A stretch of DNA of 64,000 nucleotides, from NCBI GenBank assembly GCA_004764695.1, contig SMSO01000031.1, positions 4,821,048 to 4,885,047 of the forward strand, in the 5' to 3' direction. This DNA is from Schizochytrium sp. TIO01 (Eukaryota; Sar; Bigyra; Thraustochytrida; Thraustochytriidae). Position numbers and translations under genes: made by a program. Position 1 is the stretch's first letter, and every line of letters begins with the position of its first letter. The notes below the pieces were generated by a model. The model was not told the origin of the DNA and did no database searches. It was given only the letters and a program-made list of their open reading frames with translations. Below, piece by piece: positions 7,924-64,000 of the stretch.

Positions 7924-8997
7924 TTAGCTCATGGCCATCACCTCCGCGAGGGTCGCACCATCCTTGAGCAAATTAGCACCAGCCCTGAGGATTGGTAAAG
8001 CCAAGGCTGCTCCACTGGCTTCGCCCAAGTGAAGGCTGAGGTCCAATACAGGGATTACAGTGGCTCCGGCAATAGATTGCACTTCCTCAAGCATAAATTT
8101 CTGGCCAGGCTCTGATGATCGTGTGGCGAAGATAAGGTGGCTAGCCACTCGAGGATCATGGCGAACAGCAACAAGGGCAGCAGAACTAGAAATGATACCA
8201 TCCACCAAGAGTGCAATTTCCCGCTCAGGGCCCTGCAGATATGCCCCAGTCATTGCAGCAATTTCCAAACCACCCAGGTCCTGAAGTACACCAAGAGCAT
8301 CTTCAGGAGAAGATCCTCCTCTGGCCAGAGCCTTGGCAATAACCTTGGACTTGTTCTGCATACCCTTCTCATCTAGACCAGTGCCAGGTCCGACAAGTCT
8401 GGTGGGGTCCTCGAAACCGAGCAGCCGAGAGGCAATTGCACTAGCGGGAGTAGTGTTACCGATGCCCATCTCTCCAATGGCAAAGATTCGTGTGCCATCT
8501 TCTTCGATGGCTCGGTCCACTGCGTCTCTTCCGACCTGGAGAGCTGCCTTCATTTGCTCTGCTGACATGGCGGGCTGTACAGCCAGGTTGTCTGTGCCTT
8601 CGCAAACACGATCATTGAAGAAGCGAACAATCTCGTCATGCGGGGTGTCCTCAAGAGAGTATTCGTTTGCGACACCGACATCAATGAGGTCCACAGTCGC
8701 TCCATTGGACTTGGAGAAGCTTGTCGCACAAGATTTGCCAGCGTACATAGTCTTGAGCATTGAAATCGTCACGGCTTGCGGAAATGGCGACACGCCTTCG
8801 TCTCTGGCCACACCATGGTCGCCAGCAAAAATCAAGACTTTCGGACTCTCCAAAATTGGAGGATAGCTCGCCTGAGCTCTACACAGCTGCACTACAAGGT
8901 CCTCAAGTAGGCCGAGGCTACCAACGGGTTTTGCCAAAGAGTCTAAACGAGCACGGGCGTCCGCAGCTGCCTTAGTTTGCTCAGGAGTCTCAGCCAT
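7924..8997 (-). CDS. cobT: CobT, nicotinate-nucleotide:dimethylbenzimidazole phosphoribosyltransferase
   Basis: CobT transfers phosphoribose from nicotinate mononucleotide to a base such as 5,6-dimethylbenzimidazole, giving alpha-ribazole phosphate for the lower ligand of cobalamin. The 357-residue product spans the whole bacterial family. The N-terminal LDSLAKPVGSLG motif is at residues 18-29, the FAGDHGVARDEGVS motif at 57-70, the glycine-rich GEMGIGNTT loop at 175-183, and LGEASGAALALP near the C-terminus carries the expected catalytic Glu (E326, equivalent to E317 of Salmonella CobT). The start is ATG and the stop TAA, with no intron. There is no clear organelle-targeting sequence. It is divergent from cobS, whose start lies about 1.9 kb away. 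A bacterial origin by transfer is likely, but the base composition does not stand out from its neighbours. Confidence 0.95.
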   Translation of the reverse strand: MAETPEQTKAAADARARLDSLAKPVGSLGLLEDLVVQLCRAQASYPPILESPKVLIFAGDHGVARDEGVSPFPQAVTISMLKTMYAGKSCATSFSKSNGATVDLIDVGVANEYSLEDTPHDEIVRFFNDRVCEGTDNLAVQPAMSAEQMKAALQVGRDAVDRAIEEDGTRIFAIGEMGIGNTTPASAIASRLLGFEDPTRLVGPGTGLDEKGMQNKSKVIAKALARGGSSPEDALGVLQDLGGLEIAAMTGAYLQGPEREIALLVDGIISSSAALVAVRHDPRVASHLIFATRSSEPGQKFMLEEVQSIAGATVIPVLDLSLHLGEASGAALALPILRAGANLLKDGATLAEVMAMS

Positions 8998-10908: not shown

Positions 10909-12078
10909 ATGGCACCCAACAATGCACTGATGAAGTCGAGTCTTGGCGAGGACAAGAAAAACCCGCCTGAGACCGACGAGGCCAACGATGGTAGCTTGAA
11001 CAACGATGGATCCTCGAGTGATGCTGCAGAATTATGCGGAGACGAATCGTCTGGACAAACCATGCGTCAACGCGATGGTATGATCACCACAGACGAGGTC
11101 CAAGGCCGTGGTGACGGCGTGAATCCCAATACTGGTGAAGTGGAAGCCGAGTGGTTTAAGGAATTACGCAGAGCGCTCGTAGCCACCATGTTTCTCACTA
11201 GACTCCCAATGCCAGAGTGGGTTGATCATAACCCACGGGATCTCGTGCCTGGCATGATGTACTTTCCTATCATTGGCTCAATCGTTGGCATCTGGTGTGG
11301 ACTCTGGTATGAGGCTTTAGTGCAGGTGTGGAGCCCGCTGGTTGCGGCTTGTGCGTCCACGCTCGCTGGCGTGTGGGTAAGTGGATGCTTCCATGAGGAT
11401 GGCCTCATGGATACCACGGATGCATTCGGCGGTGGCTGGACACGGGACCAGATCCTGCGTATCATGAAAGATTCTCGATGTGGTACATATGCTGTAGTTG
11501 TTATGAACTTGTTCATGCTCACTAAGACCAACTCGTTGGCCTATCTTGGTTCTGGGGAGAAGGGCATTCTCACCGTTCAACAAGCTCTCATCATTGCTCA
11601 TTCGTGCTCGCGGTTAACTGCTGTCTGGCAAGTTAATCTTTTTGAATATGTTCATGATGAGGGCGACGACAAGGGTTTATTGTACAATACCTACGCTGGC
11701 TGTCTCCGCCTCGGTCTTTTGACTTGGTCTCGTGTGGCCATTGCCACGGCATATACCCTCGCACTCATTGTCATGCTCTTGCCTGTGACAAAGGTTATTG
11801 CTGTTTGCGTAGTTGTAGCCATAATGACGGTCGCCTCGGGAGTGTATGCGACTTCGATTATTGGTGGCATTATTGGAGATTTCTGTGGTGCTGTCATCCT
11901 TCTCACTGAGGGCCTTGTATACCTTATTCTTGCTGCGGATCTGGACGCCATTCCTCTGGATGCTTGGAAACCTTGGTTGCGCCTTGTGTTGTTTTGTGGT
12001 ATCCCAGCATACTTTATGCCTGGTGTCGCTGGTTTTCTCGCGCGTCAGACTAGTAAACAAGCATGCCACACTGATTAG
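10909..12078 (+). CDS. cobS: CobS, adenosylcobinamide-GDP ribazoletransferase (cobalamin synthase)
   Basis: CobS joins adenosylcobinamide-GDP to alpha-ribazole (or its phosphate), the last assembly step of the nucleotide loop, and is a polytopic membrane enzyme. The family region begins near residue 83 with FKELRRAL, then FLTRLPMPEW (95-104). The diagnostic HEDGLMDTTDAFGGG is at 162-176, the acidic motif thought to bind Mg2+ and substrate. IMKDSRCGTYA follows at 185-195 and the C-terminal GGIIGDFCGA at 319-328. Hydrophobic segments fill about 110-160, 195-210, 270-345 and 355-377. The first 80 residues are an acidic, low-complexity extension absent from bacterial CobS (usually about 250 residues). 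Start ATG, stop TAG, single exon. Its partner cobT is the divergent neighbour. Confidence 0.95.
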   Translation: MAPNNALMKSSLGEDKKNPPETDEANDGSLNNDGSSSDAAELCGDESSGQTMRQRDGMITTDEVQGRGDGVNPNTGEVEAEWFKELRRALVATMFLTRLPMPEWVDHNPRDLVPGMMYFPIIGSIVGIWCGLWYEALVQVWSPLVAACASTLAGVWVSGCFHEDGLMDTTDAFGGGWTRDQILRIMKDSRCGTYAVVVMNLFMLTKTNSLAYLGSGEKGILTVQQALIIAHSCSRLTAVWQVNLFEYVHDEGDDKGLLYNTYAGCLRLGLLTWSRVAIATAYTLALIVMLLPVTKVIAVCVVVAIMTVASGVYATSIIGGIIGDFCGAVILLTEGLVYLILAADLDAIPLDAWKPWLRLVLFCGIPAYFMPGVAGFLARQTSKQACHTD

Positions 12079-57808: not shown

Positions 57809-58488
57809 CTGCCATGAGAATGGGGATATCAACGGAGATGGCGCTAGATCGATCACATGTGCAGATATACATATTTACAGCAGAAATGAGGCAAGGCATC
57901 GATTGAAGTGCTCGCGACGATTCAGCTGAGGCAGTTCCAGCCACGTGGAGGTTCCTTGGCATGGCAATGCTGGCGGGGAGATCTGTCTGCAGGAATGCAG
58001 CTTTTGCTGTGAGCTCAATCGAGCAAGATCCGCATTTTGTCAGCGGTTGAGTGAGTGAGTGAGTGAGTGAGTGATCATCATTCGTTGATTGTTGCTCGCT
58101 CAGTCGCTTTCAGTGAAGGCGCGGCACTGCTATATTATTGGGTAGGTGTCCCTAGTCAGTAATGAGGGAAGGATGAAAAACAAACGAAAGAAATAAATCG
58201 AGAATCATCGATCGGATGGCAACAAACAACGCCCACGATTCGCTCCCGCAGCGGTGAACGAGGGCTGCAGAGAGTGTAATGGCGCTCTCGTGGGCACCTC
58301 GCATCGCGTTCAACGCAGCATCTCAGTTAGCTAGCACGAATGCAGGGCGGATGACTTATTTTTATAAAGGTGATGAGTGCACAGCGCCACCGTACATTGC
58401 ACGAAATGATTGATTTTCATTGAAAATCGCAAAATTGATTCTCAATATGCCAGGCGTGCGTGCTATATCAATGGCGTTGAGAAAAGAC

Positions 58489-58513
58489 CAAGGCAAGGCA
58501 AGGCAAGGCAAAG
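58489..58513. repeat. AAGGC pentanucleotide tract
   Basis: Five tandem AAGGC units in the upstream region of the transsulfuration fusion gene. Confidence 0.85.
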
Positions 58514-58740
58514 AGTAGCGAGCTTGCGATGGAACGAACAAGGGACAACGCTAGCAAAGACTGGCAGCATCAGAGACGATGCAAATAGAAACCAGCCGGT
58601 TGCTTGTCTCGGTTTTTGATTTAAAGAAAATGCAAATAATTTCATAAATTGTAAAATGTTTATAGAGAACTACTATTACTAGACCATAGCCATTTCTACT
58701 AGCGACAGGAGAATCTTACTTTTAAAAGAATGCAATGCAG

Positions 58741-58862
58741 AGCAAAGTAAAGTAAACTAAAGTAAACTAAAGTAAAGTAAAGCAAGACGAGACAAGACAA
58801 GACAAAACAAGACAAAACAAGGCAAGACAAGGCACGCAAAGCAAATCAAATCGAGGCAAAGC
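58741..58862. repeat. drifting pentanucleotide array just upstream of the fusion gene
   Basis: About 24 five-base units keep one register while the sequence drifts from AAAGT/AAACT through AAGAC/AAAAC to AAGGC. The array ends about 46 bases before the ATG at 58909, so it probably lies in the leader or core promoter. The plus strand is almost free of T in its second half. A role in expression is possible but not shown. Confidence 0.8.
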
Positions 58863-58908
58863 TGCTTCAGCTAGCAAGCTAGCCAGATTTGCGGACTCGG
58901 CGCCGGCG

Positions 58909-61900
58909 ATGCACACGCTGCGACCTGCTCGTTCGCGCCTGGCCCTGGGATCGCGTTCCGTTCCCGCTCGCCGCCGCCAGGACGCCTCGTCATCTTTCAT
59001 CTTGTCGTCCTCGTCGTCCTCATCGACACTAACCTCGAGACCTCACGCTATGAGTTCCACCCCTTGGTGGCCTGCTTCCATCCAGCAGGCTCGCACTGTG
59101 AGCACTGCAAGCAACTCCAGCGGTGTCTCTCAACCTAAGCGCTCGGAGTCCAAGAGTGTTGACGGAGAGAACATGAGTGGCGCCTCCAGCGTCAGCATGC
59201 GCTCCCGTTCGTTTTCATCGGGTGCCAGCAACGGCCAGGATGCCGATGCCGCTCGCAAGCGTAGCTACCGCCTCGCAACTCGTGTCGCAAACTTCGGCAG
59301 CGATGTCAGCGGTCTTCAGGACCCTTCAGGCACCGTGAACGTGCCCATCTACCAGACTGCCACCTTTGACTGCCGCGACCAGGACCTCTACGACTACACT
59401 CGCAGCGGAAACCCGACACGCCATGCACTCCAGAACGTCTGTGCTTCACTCGAGGGACCCGATGCCAAGGCTTTTGCTTTTACCTCTGGAATGGCTGCGC
59501 TCACAGCAGTTGTGCGTCTCATTCGCCCTGGTGAAACCATTTTGGCATGCCAAGACATTTATGGTGGAATGCACAGACTTCTTATGCATGCAGCACGTGC
59601 CAGCGGTGCGACTGTTCGTTTTGTGGAGACATGGGACGTTAAGCAGGTTGAAGAGGCCTTTGCAAAGGAGGGGCAGAACATCAAGATGGTATGTCTTGAG
59701 TCGCCAACAAACCCTCAGATGCGTGTGAGTAATGTTGCAGAGATTGCTAGAATTGCTAGAGCAAATGACGCAATTGTATCGATTGATAACAGCATGATGT
59801 CACCAGTACTCATGCAGCCGCTGGCTCTGGGAGCAGATATCGTGGTGCACTCCGCGACAAAGTTCATGGGAGGGCACTCAGACGTGATGGCAGGCATCGT
59901 TGCAGTGAGGGACCCGGAGCTTGCCAAGAAGATCTATTTTATGCAAAATGCGGAGGGAAGCGGTCTTGCACCGTTCGACTGCTTTCTCGTGCTCAGAGGA
60001 ATTAAGACGATGGCACTTCGCGTGCGGGAAGCCCAGAAGAACACGCTGGCGGTGTACGAGTTCCTTGTGCGCCACCCGGACGTGATTGGCGTAAACTACC
60101 TCAAGCCTCTCCACGATGAGCAGCTCCACATTGACCCGGTGCTCGAGGACCGCAAACGTAGTCACGGCAACCCAGACTGGGTCAACGAGACCAAGACTCA
60201 CTTTGAACAGGCTACCGGTGGTGGTGCACTCCTTAGCTTCGAGATGCGCTCTGCTGAAGTTTCCCAAGAGGTGATCAAGAACCTCAAGCTCTTCAAGAAC
60301 ACCGTAAGCTTTGGTTCCTGCAGTTCTCTGGCCGAAATCCCTGCTCAAATGTCCCACGCTAGTATCCCCGCCGAAATGCAGACCATGTCTCCTGCTCTCA
60401 TCCGCCTCTCTGTCGGAATTGAGGACAGCCGTGACTTGATCGCGGACCTTCGCCACGCCATTACTCTGGCCTCTATGAAGACCTCGGAGCAAGAGAACTC
60501 TGGTGATGCCTACAAGCTTGAGCGCACCCAGAGCTACGGTTCCTTCCCTCTTGGTGAATCGGTCCCTCCCAAGGACCACCATGCTGTTGGTGTGTCAATG
60601 CCCTCATGGGAGGATGTCGTCAAGTACGAGGAAGGCGACCCCGAGACTCATGCTCAGCTGTCCGCTGGATACCCTCGTTTCGTGTTTCTGCACGCCGTAA
60701 AGCAGCTCTTTGCCAAGGCTGAGGAGCTCTTTGCTGCGCCTGGAGAGCGTGCTATGGTTCTTCCGAGTGCCCGCATTGCGCTGAGACTCCAATCCTTTCT
60801 TAATGACCCCCAGGTTCGTCTCCATGACTGTTTTGCACACAATGCTTTCGCTGTGACTTTCCCTGAGGCGCACATGGACAAGGCCAAAAAGTTTTGGCAG
60901 CACTCTGGTGAAATTGTCTCGAGCCGTAAGGCGGCTGCAGTACTCGACGTCATCGATCGCACCTGCTTCGAAAATGCACGCAAGGGTGGCGGTCGTGACG
61001 TTCGCAATGCTCAGAGGAACGACAGTGCAGAGGCCCCTGATGCTCGTATACCTCCGGCCACGCCGCACTCTGGAAGACAGGTAAACTTCGCAGCCCACTC
61101 TTCCCTTAAGAAGCGTATTGCAGGCATCCACCACGAAGATGCGGATAATGTCTATCTCTTCCCAACTGGCATGGCAGCACTCGCATCTACGCAGCGCCTT
61201 CTTAAGCTTTCATCGCAGTGGGAAGAGAAACCCCTGCGGACTGTCATCTTTGGATTCCCGTATCTCGACACACTCAAGCTCGCGCAGCTTGAACCTCTCG
61301 GCTCTGGCGCTACCTTCTTTGGTCGTGGCGATGAGGAGGACTTTGTAAAACTTCGCGAGCTTCTTGAGCGCGAGCGGATCTCGGGTCTCTTTTGTGAGTT
61401 CCCTTCGAACCCTTTGCTCAAGGCACCTGATTTGTCTAGACTGAGGGCCCTTGCTGACGAGTTTGGGTTTGCCATCATCATGGATGACTCCGTTGTTGGA
61501 TCTGCGAACGTTGATCTCACTGGCCCTCAGGGCGCTGATATCATCTGCACCTCTCTCACCAAGCAGTTCTCTGGATCTGGTAACGTTATGGGCGGCTCCC
61601 TTGTTTTGAACTCTCAGAGCCCGCTTTACGGAGTGCTTAAGAGCCGCATCGACCACGACCACGAAGAGAACTTGTGGTCTGAGGACGCTCAGGTGCTCCT
61701 TAAGGCCAGCGCTGATTTTGAGTCTCGTGTCGCCCGCACCAACGCCACTACCATGCAGCTGGTAGACCATCTGTCCAAGTCTCCGCTCGTCAAGTCCGTC
61801 TATCACCCGTCATGCGTACAAACAGAGTTGTATGATCGCTTCAAGCGTGATGCTCCCCATGCTGGCTACGGTTCGCTCTTTTCTGTAGTTTTTAAGGAGC

Positions 61901-62133
61901 CCTCCCACGCACAACGTTTTTACAACAAATTGCAGATCCCTAAGACCCCCGGCTTTGGCACAAACTTCTCCATGACATGTCCGTACACAGTTATTGCGCA
62001 CTACCATGAGCTTGAGTGGGCTGCCAACTTTGGTGTGGATGCCAACCTTGTGCGCATCTGGATCGGCCTCGAGGACCCTCGCGAGCTCGTTGCCAAGTTC
62101 GACGCTGCTCTCGACTCATGCTGCGACCTGTGA
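58909..62133 (+). CDS. fused cystathionine beta-lyase / cystathionine gamma-synthase, 1074 aa
   Basis: Residues 1-100 are Arg/Ser-rich without acidic residues at the start, like an organelle presequence. Residues 118-522 form a complete plant-type cystathionine beta-lyase: YDYTRSGNPTR (161-171), FTSGMAALTAV (191-201), LESPTNP (263-269), the PLP lysine K318 in SATKFMGGHSDVMAG, NAEGSGLAPFDC (347-358) and MSHASIPAEM (481-490). A linker of about 35 residues follows. Residues 556-1074 match the fungal (STR2-type) cystathionine gamma-synthase over its full length: VGVSMPSWEDVVKYEEGDP (560-578), SAGYPRFVF, FPTGMAAL (751-758), CEFPSNPLLKAPDL (829-842) and the PLP lysine K885 in TSLTKQFSGSGNVMGGS. The synthase makes cystathionine from cysteine and O-acylhomoserine; the lyase cleaves it to homocysteine, pyruvate and ammonia. 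One polypeptide thus covers forward transsulfuration. Single exon, stop TGA. A second in-frame ATG is at 59050 (residue 48). Confidence 0.92.
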   Translation: MHTLRPARSRLALGSRSVPARRRQDASSSFILSSSSSSSTLTSRPHAMSSTPWWPASIQQARTVSTASNSSGVSQPKRSESKSVDGENMSGASSVSMRSRSFSSGASNGQDADAARKRSYRLATRVANFGSDVSGLQDPSGTVNVPIYQTATFDCRDQDLYDYTRSGNPTRHALQNVCASLEGPDAKAFAFTSGMAALTAVVRLIRPGETILACQDIYGGMHRLLMHAARASGATVRFVETWDVKQVEEAFAKEGQNIKMVCLESPTNPQMRVSNVAEIARIARANDAIVSIDNSMMSPVLMQPLALGADIVVHSATKFMGGHSDVMAGIVAVRDPELAKKIYFMQNAEGSGLAPFDCFLVLRGIKTMALRVREAQKNTLAVYEFLVRHPDVIGVNYLKPLHDEQLHIDPVLEDRKRSHGNPDWVNETKTHFEQATGGGALLSFEMRSAEVSQEVIKNLKLFKNTVSFGSCSSLAEIPAQMSHASIPAEMQTMSPALIRLSVGIEDSRDLIADLRHAITLASMKTSEQENSGDAYKLERTQSYGSFPLGESVPPKDHHAVGVSMPSWEDVVKYEEGDPETHAQLSAGYPRFVFLHAVKQLFAKAEELFAAPGERAMVLPSARIALRLQSFLNDPQVRLHDCFAHNAFAVTFPEAHMDKAKKFWQHSGEIVSSRKAAAVLDVIDRTCFENARKGGGRDVRNAQRNDSAEAPDARIPPATPHSGRQVNFAAHSSLKKRIAGIHHEDADNVYLFPTGMAALASTQRLLKLSSQWEEKPLRTVIFGFPYLDTLKLAQLEPLGSGATFFGRGDEEDFVKLRELLERERISGLFCEFPSNPLLKAPDLSRLRALADEFGFAIIMDDSVVGSANVDLTGPQGADIICTSLTKQFSGSGNVMGGSLVLNSQSPLYGVLKSRIDHDHEENLWSEDAQVLLKASADFESRVARTNATTMQLVDHLSKSPLVKSVYHPSCVQTELYDRFKRDAPHAGYGSLFSVVFKEPSHAQRFYNKLQIPKTPGFGTNFSMTCPYTVIAHYHELEWAANFGVDANLVRIWIGLEDPRELVAKFDAALDSCCDL

Positions 62134-62674
62134 AGCAACATAATCAATCATTAGACAGACAGATATGCATCATAAACACTTGCCCGCCTATATTAAAAAT
62201 CCAAAGAGAACTAGAAAACTTTAAAAAAAAAATATTACATAACGCCCCTGACTCAGTAAAAATAGTTCTTGATAGGACATGATTCTTTAAAACTTTAGAA
62301 AGAGCTCAGGATTTTATGGTTCTATTTCTCGTTGCCTCTGCGGGGGCGGGCCCTTATGCTCACGAATATTCTTTTCTGTGGTCAGAAACTTAGAGCTTTT
62401 GACTGTTTTAGTCAACTTTTTTTTTTGTGTAGGTAAAATGAACTATGCAATTTGCTAATCAAATATGCAAAGAAAATATGGGATGGATCGTCTTTATGTT
62501 TGCCTGAAGGCAATGAGTGCTATGGAGCAGAAAAAAGGAAATAAGCCTCAGATGCTACCTTGGTAGTAGGTAAGATGCAAGGAAAGGAAAATAGGTGAAC
62601 CTGGTATGAAGACCGGGCTTATTACTTGAAAAACAAGAAACGACAACAACAAAGAAAAATGATAACAATAAAAA
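62134..62674. other. intergenic region between convergent genes
   Basis: Holds the 3' ends of the fusion gene (+) and the USP5-like gene (-). It contains short A and T runs near 62220 and 62420 and nothing else recognisable. Confidence 0.5.
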
Positions 62675-64000
62675 TTAAGCCGACACGCGCTCGAATATAT
62701 AAAGAAGCCCATGCTCGAGGGGCGGGTTTTTGGACTTCGCTACCTTTCGATCATTGAAGATCACCCAGTCATCCTTGCTATCATCGGATAGATCTTTTGA
62801 CAAATTGCAGTGAGCTAAGTAGTGTCCACCTTGAGGAGTCTTGCCAAGGTGCGAGATGAACCCACGCAAAATATAATTGCCCTCGTCAGCATCATTCTCA
62901 GAACGAATGCGCTCTTCCTGCTTAGCCGCATTCTGTTCTCCGCTGCTACCGCCTCCGGCTTTAGCAGCTGCCACGAGATCCTCCAGGTCCGATGCATGAC
63001 TAAACAGCCAATCTGCTGCACGTTCTACATTACCACCACATTCCTTCAGTGCCAGCTTTACGCCATCCTCCGAAAAGCCCATGCTGGACAGCATCATCAC
63101 CGCCTCGGGATCAGCTCCACCACCATCAAGCCCACTGCTAGATTTGGACTCGATTACAGGAGGATCCGTAAAATCTGCATCGCCCATGTGTTCCAGAACC
63201 CAATTCATGGCAGCCTCTGCAGAATTGTTTCCTGTGGCCAGCAAAGCACGCTTGCATCCATTCAAATCAAAGCCCATGGACGTTAGCTGTGCAAGGAGAC
63301 CCTCATCAGGCTCAGTGGGCGGAGGCGGGCCTGCAGTTTGGTCAGGCTGCACGTCGGGGAGCTCCTCCTCACCAGCTTGCAATCCCTTGCCACGGAAAGC
63401 ATTAAGGTTTAAGTCTCGTGGGACTGGAACGCGAGCCTCGATCTTCCGTGGTGTCCAGTCTTCGCCAACCACATAGCGCTTGAGCTGAATAGCCAAGTAC
63501 TGTGGAAACGTGCCAAGTGAGGGGACTTGAATGGCCTTACCACGGCGTCCAGTCGCAGGCGACAGATAGTCGTCAACTTCAACTGCAGAAGAGTCTCCTA
63601 GAGAGGAGGCAAGGCATGTTTCGAAAGACACCACTGGAAGCTCCTCGTCCTCCTGTTTCTTATTGTCGCCCTTGGCATCTTTCTTATTCGTGGTGGAAGA
63701 AGGCGGTGGCACGTTGAGCATGAGTACATTGCTCACCATGTCTTGGTACTTGACCTGACCAGACTGCTGGCATTCAAGGCGCTCCTCCACCAAAAACGAA
63801 AACCAGCGTCCCGGATTGATGAGTTCTTCATCAACTTCACCTCCAGAGGCTGCATGATCCATGCGAGAGATCTTGTCCAAGACGTACTGAAAGTACTCAC
63901 GAGCATCCTGCTGTTCGCGTGTACCAAAATCAGGATGCCCATGACCAAGGCAATCCTTTAACATCTTCGGGGGAACTGCCATTACACCATCGTCTTTGGC
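62675..64000 (-). CDS. USP5/isopeptidase T-like ubiquitin-specific protease, C-terminal part (runs off the window)
   Basis: The frame is open to the right edge; the Met at 63982 is internal, because sequence before it still matches the family. USP5-type enzymes disassemble free polyubiquitin chains. Visible parts, numbered from that Met: KDCLGHGHPDFGTREQQDAREYF (9-31), the QQDA helix that follows the catalytic Cys box in this family; FSFLVEERLECQQSGQVKY (61-79); FPQYLAIQLKRYVVGEDW (159-176); two UBA domains (226-265 with LTSMGF, and 291-330 with LSSMGF); then the His box GGHYLAH (385-391, catalytic His387) and WVIFNDRKV (406-414). Two UBA domains inserted in the catalytic domain are diagnostic for USP5/USP13. 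The zinc-finger UBP domain and catalytic Cys lie beyond the window. Stop TAA at 62675-62677. Confidence 0.93.
   Translation of the reverse strand, partial: AKDDGVMAVPPKMLKDCLGHGHPDFGTREQQDAREYFQYVLDKISRMDHAASGGEVDEELINPGRWFSFLVEERLECQQSGQVKYQDMVSNVLMLNVPPPSSTTNKKDAKGDNKKQEDEELPVVSFETCLASSLGDSSAVEVDDYLSPATGRRGKAIQVPSLGTFPQYLAIQLKRYVVGEDWTPRKIEARVPVPRDLNLNAFRGKGLQAGEEELPDVQPDQTAGPPPPTEPDEGLLAQLTSMGFDLNGCKRALLATGNNSAEAAMNWVLEHMGDADFTDPPVIESKSSSGLDGGGADPEAVMMLSSMGFSEDGVKLALKECGGNVERAADWLFSHASDLEDLVAAAKAGGGSSGEQNAAKQEERIRSENDADEGNYILRGFISHLGKTPQGGHYLAHCNLSKDLSDDSKDDWVIFNDRKVAKSKNPPLEHGLLYIFERVSA

Follow-up and report, generated by a model that had tools for sequence, protein, structure and literature searches.

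The stretch of DNA analysed here, referred to as the window, comprises 64,000 nucleotides of contig SMSO01000031.1 from the thraustochytrid Schizochytrium sp. TIO01. Towards its end, an open frame that stays open without invoking any intron occupies 58909..62133 of the forward strand and encodes 1074 codons plus the stop. The frame starts with ATG, with the nearest upstream in-frame stop at 58768. The longest stop-free frame in 58300-62700 comprises 1120 codons, whereas 300 first-order Markov simulations gave 155 codons on average and 281 at most. The encoded protein is composed of an N-terminal extension (residues 1-135; 58909..59313), a cystathionine beta-lyase (CBL)-type domain (residues 136-521; 59314..60471), a coding linker of about 26 residues in the same frame (residues 522-547; 60472..60549) and a cystathionine gamma-synthase (CGS)-type domain of the CndF/BesB lineage (residues 548-1070; 60550..62118), which includes the lineage's own N-terminal region. 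Both halves are full length, as a sequence-only reading of the window had proposed, with the profile TIGR01329 matching residues 136-521 and CndF aligning to residues 548-1060. The two PLP lysines also lie where that reading placed them, K318 (SATK; 59860..59862) in the lyase-type domain and K885 (SLTK; 61561..61563) in the synthase-type domain, all on the forward strand. The extension is rich in Ser and Arg, and similarity to enzymes of solved structure sets in between residues 111 and 136. Its first 40 residues contain 7 Lys or Arg, 1 Asp or Glu and 15 Ser or Thr; the first 24 are basic without any acidic residue, the first of which is residue 25. Judged by this composition, the extension might serve as a mitochondrial presequence of the fused protein.

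Downstream, the 3' part of a ubiquitin carboxyl-terminal hydrolase gene with two UBA domains (62675-64000, reverse strand) runs convergently with the fused gene. Upstream, about 40 kb (18000-58000) contain no ORF of 200 aa and show a G+C content of 33-45% per 2 kb and many 4-base tandem repeats; this part is either gene-poor or holds genes with introns. Further away lie a CobT gene (7924-8997, reverse strand), which scores 337.1 bits on TIGR03160 against a cut-off of 319.3, and a CobS-like gene (10909-12078, forward strand), which matches PF02654 and reaches 174.5 bits on its best NCBIfam model against a cut-off of 273. These two cobalamin nucleotide-loop enzymes are thus encoded about 2 kb apart in a eukaryote; genes of this kind are reported for certain eukaryotic algae, where they are connected with cobamide remodelling (PMC4850488, in excerpt).

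The N-terminal half matches TIGR01329, the profile of eukaryotic CBL, at profile positions 11-381 of 383. The half alone scores 431.0 bits, 100 bits ahead of the next model (331.1), and the whole protein 477 bits. Both values are below the curated cut-off of 487.5, and the half is therefore named CBL-type. PF01053 also matches this domain. Its best solved structure is Arabidopsis CBL (PDB 1ibj), with an identity of 52% (182 of 349 aligned positions). In an 11-row tree, the half forms a clade with 1ibj and L002 (G000:C36), a paralogue in the same genome, with a support of 100/99. The motifs EGSGLxPFDC (EGSGLAPFDC in both the half and 1ibj) and SFGS are common only to these three of the 11 rows. 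Residues Y163, R165, Y218, D293, S315, K318 and R499 are identical in all 11 rows, and conserved Tyr, Asp and Arg positions, in the patterns Y.R, YGG, D and R, have active-site roles in this family. The Glu of the ESL-type motif, which we take to mark CGS and CGL, is present in five other rows and, as ET, in a sixth, whereas the N-terminal half has Ser, 1ibj Lys and L002 Asn at this position. Compared to Arabidopsis CBL, the half has a longer loop at about residues 396-429 and is fused to a second enzyme, in addition to its score below the TIGR01329 cut-off. The earlier assignment to the plant/algal beta-lyases thus holds for the clade with the Arabidopsis enzyme, but falls short of the curated threshold. 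L002 was aligned to the second half in two alignments (A1 and A3), on which no first-half result depends; a third (A2) placed bacterial relatives of the second half on the first, and was used only for equivalent active-site positions and for the loop of the N-terminal half.

The C-terminal half is matched by Pfam over its last two thirds only. The nearest solved structure is CndF (PDB 8zif), a fungal enzyme (PMC10367076, in excerpt), which aligns with the half end to end in one stretch of 513 residues (E 6.1e-72), including the N-terminal region of the lineage; BesB aligns more weakly. The half belongs to a lineage with an extra N-terminal region, which comprises CndF, BesB and bacterial homologues. 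On a profile including 21 of these bacterial homologues, CndF scores 354.7 bits and BesB 311-314 bits, compared to 163.4 bits for the best classical enzyme. A 29-row tree splits this lineage together with the C-terminal half from five classical rows at 100/100. Within the lineage, CndF is the partner of the half at a support of 87/90, a fork that is not firm; the bootstrap had yet to settle completely. The branches of CndF (1.66) and BesB are long, as would be expected of a derived enzyme in the case of CndF. An insert at about residues 681-725 of the C-terminal half is shared with CndF; for most of its positions, 19 or more of the 21 bacterial rows lack this insert.

The C-terminal half keeps 66 of the 70 positions invariant in all 21 rows, including Y785, D859, K885 and R1049, and changes the other four (D555K, P855A, D892N and G1013T). 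Of 137 positions at which 19 or more rows agree, 107 are kept and 30 changed. The bacterial Tyr equivalent to Y785 (61261..61263, forward strand) aligns with Y218 of the N-terminal half, and Phe replaces it in BesB. This difference, together with a score of 162.1 bits on NF042918 against a cut-off of 800, argues against a BesB function. A classical CGS was likewise rejected, based on 75.7 bits on TIGR02080 against a cut-off of 504.55 and on the split from the five classical rows; among the models listed, the half passes no curated cut-off. No second gene of this lineage was found among the best candidates scored in the own genome, the next best being a classical paralogue with 57.5 bits. The second half had been read as a fungal STR2-type gamma-synthase. 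The fungal affinity agrees with CndF as the nearest structure within the CndF/BesB lineage, while the STR2 identity is inferred, the relatives compared being CndF, BesB and the 21 bacterial homologues.

The bacterial homologues (L021-L041) were obtained from one genome scan, in which 27 stretches matched and 21 were confirmed. They come from Verrucomicrobiota, Planctomycetota, Kiritimatiellota and Sumerlaeota, and share 34-41% identity with the C-terminal half. All are stand-alone genes, in contrast to the fused half. According to the ORF list, a classical transsulfuration-type PLP gene adjoins the homologue in two of the 21 loci, with both neighbours model-checked. In L022, this gene directly precedes the homologue on the same strand, which corresponds to the order within the fused gene, with three in-frame stops between the two. 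In L023, it is divergent, with cysK also adjoining. The two neighbours show 35% (L022) and 38% (L023) identity to the N-terminal half of the window protein. In addition, metF adjoins the homologue in L024, and two further bacterial genomes have a classical match at a distance of about 6 kb on the contig of the homologue. For 14 of the 21 loci, the genome was searched for a bacterial fusion. In 13 of the 14, the open frames of the homologues comprise 492-548 codons, and in three (G004, G008 and G009) no match to the N-terminal half was found at 1e-20. For the remaining candidate (L022 / G002:C185), the search table gives one frame of 1013 codons for both matches, but the translated DNA contains two separate genes and the fusion was rejected; the conflict between the table and the stops in the DNA is unexplained. 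Two scans of viral contigs yielded no confirmed relative, with 42 stretches matching the pattern and none confirmed in the first, and none obtained in the second.

The assembly (64.06 Mb, 37 contigs) carries further genes of sulfur amino acid metabolism. A candidate for the homoserine acetyltransferase MetX (L019) scores 383.7 bits on NF001209, above the cut-off of 331, but fails the stricter TIGR01392 (417.7 against 500). A second MetX candidate scores 293.2 on NF001209 and is below the cut-off. Both candidates begin with long stretches without acidic residues, and a mitochondrial location would fit these starts together with that of the fused protein. Two CBS genes are above cut-off. The stand-alone CBL-type gene L002 scores 490.2 bits, above the CBL cut-off, so the fusion need not be the sole lyase of the cell. 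With up to 783 aa, the product of L002 has a long extension at its N-terminus and ends in a hydrophobic tail; it is possibly membrane-anchored. L003 is a CGL/CGS-type gene, and L004 and L005 are further family members; none of the three is above the cut-offs of the models listed. The CGS/CGL-type L005 (G000:C13) shows a hydrophobic, basic N-terminal segment resembling a membrane anchor or a strong targeting signal. Two genes of the O-acetylhomoserine sulfhydrylase type, L006 (540.0 bits) and L007 (648.3 bits), are above the TIGR01326 cut-off of 495.1. In L006 (G000:C34; 739 aa), the sulfhydrylase-type domain is fused behind a CoA_binding_2 domain, which makes it another fusion in sulfur amino acid metabolism. 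Based on this set of MetX, CBS, CBL-type, CGL/CGS-type and sulfhydrylase-type genes, the forward route, the reverse route and direct sulfhydrylation seem to coexist in the genome.

A mitochondrial locus (L018) was also read in the same assembly, giving nad4, cox1, cox2 and atp6, of which nad4 and atp6 are read partly or to the locus edge. Before the first ATG of these four genes, TTA occurs at codon 3 of cox1 and codon 15 of cox2; elsewhere it occurs only near the end of cox2, at codons 267 and 269 of 274. This pattern agrees with the mitochondrial code of thraustochytrids (NCBI table 23), where TTA acts as a stop codon. The cox1 region is found twice on G000:C15 (near 20749 and 61898, about 41 kb apart) and once on C37, perhaps reflecting a circular mitochondrial genome that was assembled more than once around.

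We propose that the fused protein is probably a bifunctional enzyme of forward transsulfuration. The C-terminal domain would catalyze a PLP-dependent gamma-substitution, in which an activated homoserine, most likely O-acetylhomoserine, reacts with cysteine to form cystathionine. The N-terminal domain would then cleave cystathionine by beta-elimination to homocysteine, pyruvate and ammonia. These putative substrates are based on the presence of MetX and from the fungal assignment, in which Str2 forms cystathionine from O-acetylhomoserine and cysteine and Str3 converts cystathionine to homocysteine (PMC11506715, in excerpt). The genome context, with a MetX candidate and with bacterial homologues beside classical PLP genes, fits forward transsulfuration. 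As to the reason for the fusion, we favor a synthase tied to its lyase that would commit cystathionine to homocysteine and away from the reverse route, since the genome also has CBS and a gamma-lyase/gamma-synthase-type gene potentially able to serve that route. That the fusion acts as such a committed unit, insulating the forward from the reverse route by channelling or co-localisation, is a tentative suggestion. The active sites of this PLP family are built across subunit interfaces, so the fusion would need an unusual oligomer or a pairing of the two unlike domains. Both activities, their substrates and the reason for the fusion are inferred.

The affinity to CndF allows a different reading, in which the C-terminal half performs gamma-substitution as a member of the CndF lineage but with another nucleophile, such as a carbon nucleophile on the way to a specialised amino acid, and the fusion does not serve transsulfuration. 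The two solved relatives of the half, CndF and BesB, are not cystathionine synthases, and its closest solved relative is CndF rather than a tested CGS; the fork pairing the two is not fully supported. Furthermore, other nucleophiles are known to be used by fungal enzymes with the same gamma-substitution chemistry (PMC10367076, in excerpt). We nevertheless consider this reading unlikely, as the half is fused to a CBL-type domain, no further gene of its lineage appeared among the best candidates scored in the genome, and among the 21 bacterial loci the homologue has a classical PLP gene as its neighbour in two, one of them also with cysK, and metF in a third. The long branch of CndF would also be in keeping with a derived enzyme.

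Returning to the bifunctional enzyme, one half might instead be inactive and serve as a scaffold or regulatory domain, leaving the protein effectively monofunctional. A decay of the N-terminal half would be permitted by the second CBL-type gene, which is above the curated cut-off that the half itself does not reach, and given this gene the half may be redundant or specialised. However, both halves retain the PLP lysine and the family-conserved Tyr, Asp and Arg positions, and the nearly complete set of bacterial-invariant residues in the C-terminal half speaks against its loss of function. A protein with one inactive half is thus quite improbable.

The single polypeptide itself, as first read, was borne out by the junction. 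A codon model was trained on the fused ORF with residues 481-600 left out. By this model, the frame of the ORF has the top coding score among the six frames in all seven sub-windows across the junction, of which the outer ones partly overlap the training part. Within 60400-60720, the remaining forward frames have three and five stops and this frame has none, and the hexamers AATAAA and ATTAAA are absent. At third codon positions, the G+C fraction amounts to 0.61 for the lyase domain and 0.62 for the linker, and the two parts of the second domain show 0.55 and 0.61. If there were two genes, the first would have to end in a stop, which the lyase domain lacks. The C-terminal domain begins with a conserved stretch (LG..PP.D.HAV) at residue 548, ahead of M564. 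The closest Met before this residue is M523, shortly after the end of the lyase domain, from which internal initiation could possibly give an additional shorter product. Therefore, even though the fusion was examined in a single genome and M523 could start a separate second product, an artefact of assembly or gene model that joins two genes separate in the cell is highly improbable, in view of the coding signal through the junction and the missing stop and polyadenylation hexamer.

Among the matches listed from the open-access literature, none describes a CGS-CBL fusion, and cases that are annotated without being discussed may well exist. In the excerpted part of PMC2705460, the entry for the oomycete CBL Ps120833 lacks the letter used to mark multifunctional proteins, and in that of PMC4523565 the CGS-like and CBL-like genes of a diatom are separate entries. 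Thraustochytrids also have crtIBY, in which enzymes acting in succession are likewise fused and whose inactivation is reported for Aurantiochytrium limacinum (PMC10016063, in excerpt); its enzymes and pathway are unrelated to those of the present fusion. In the same genome, one long frame joins a phytoene desaturase-type and a phytoene synthase-type domain. Fusions of consecutive enzymes are known as such, as are both enzyme families and the pathway, and the joining of this particular pair would be new. The surprise therefore lies in the architecture and not in the chemistry. Two opposite pathways share cystathionine as their intermediate, and a fusion of the forward enzymes in a cell that seemingly also has the reverse enzymes would provide a clean test of whether joining prevents a futile cycle. 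The fused gene may also serve as a ready-made construct for engineering methionine supply and, if the fusion is common to other labyrinthulids, as a marker of the lineage.
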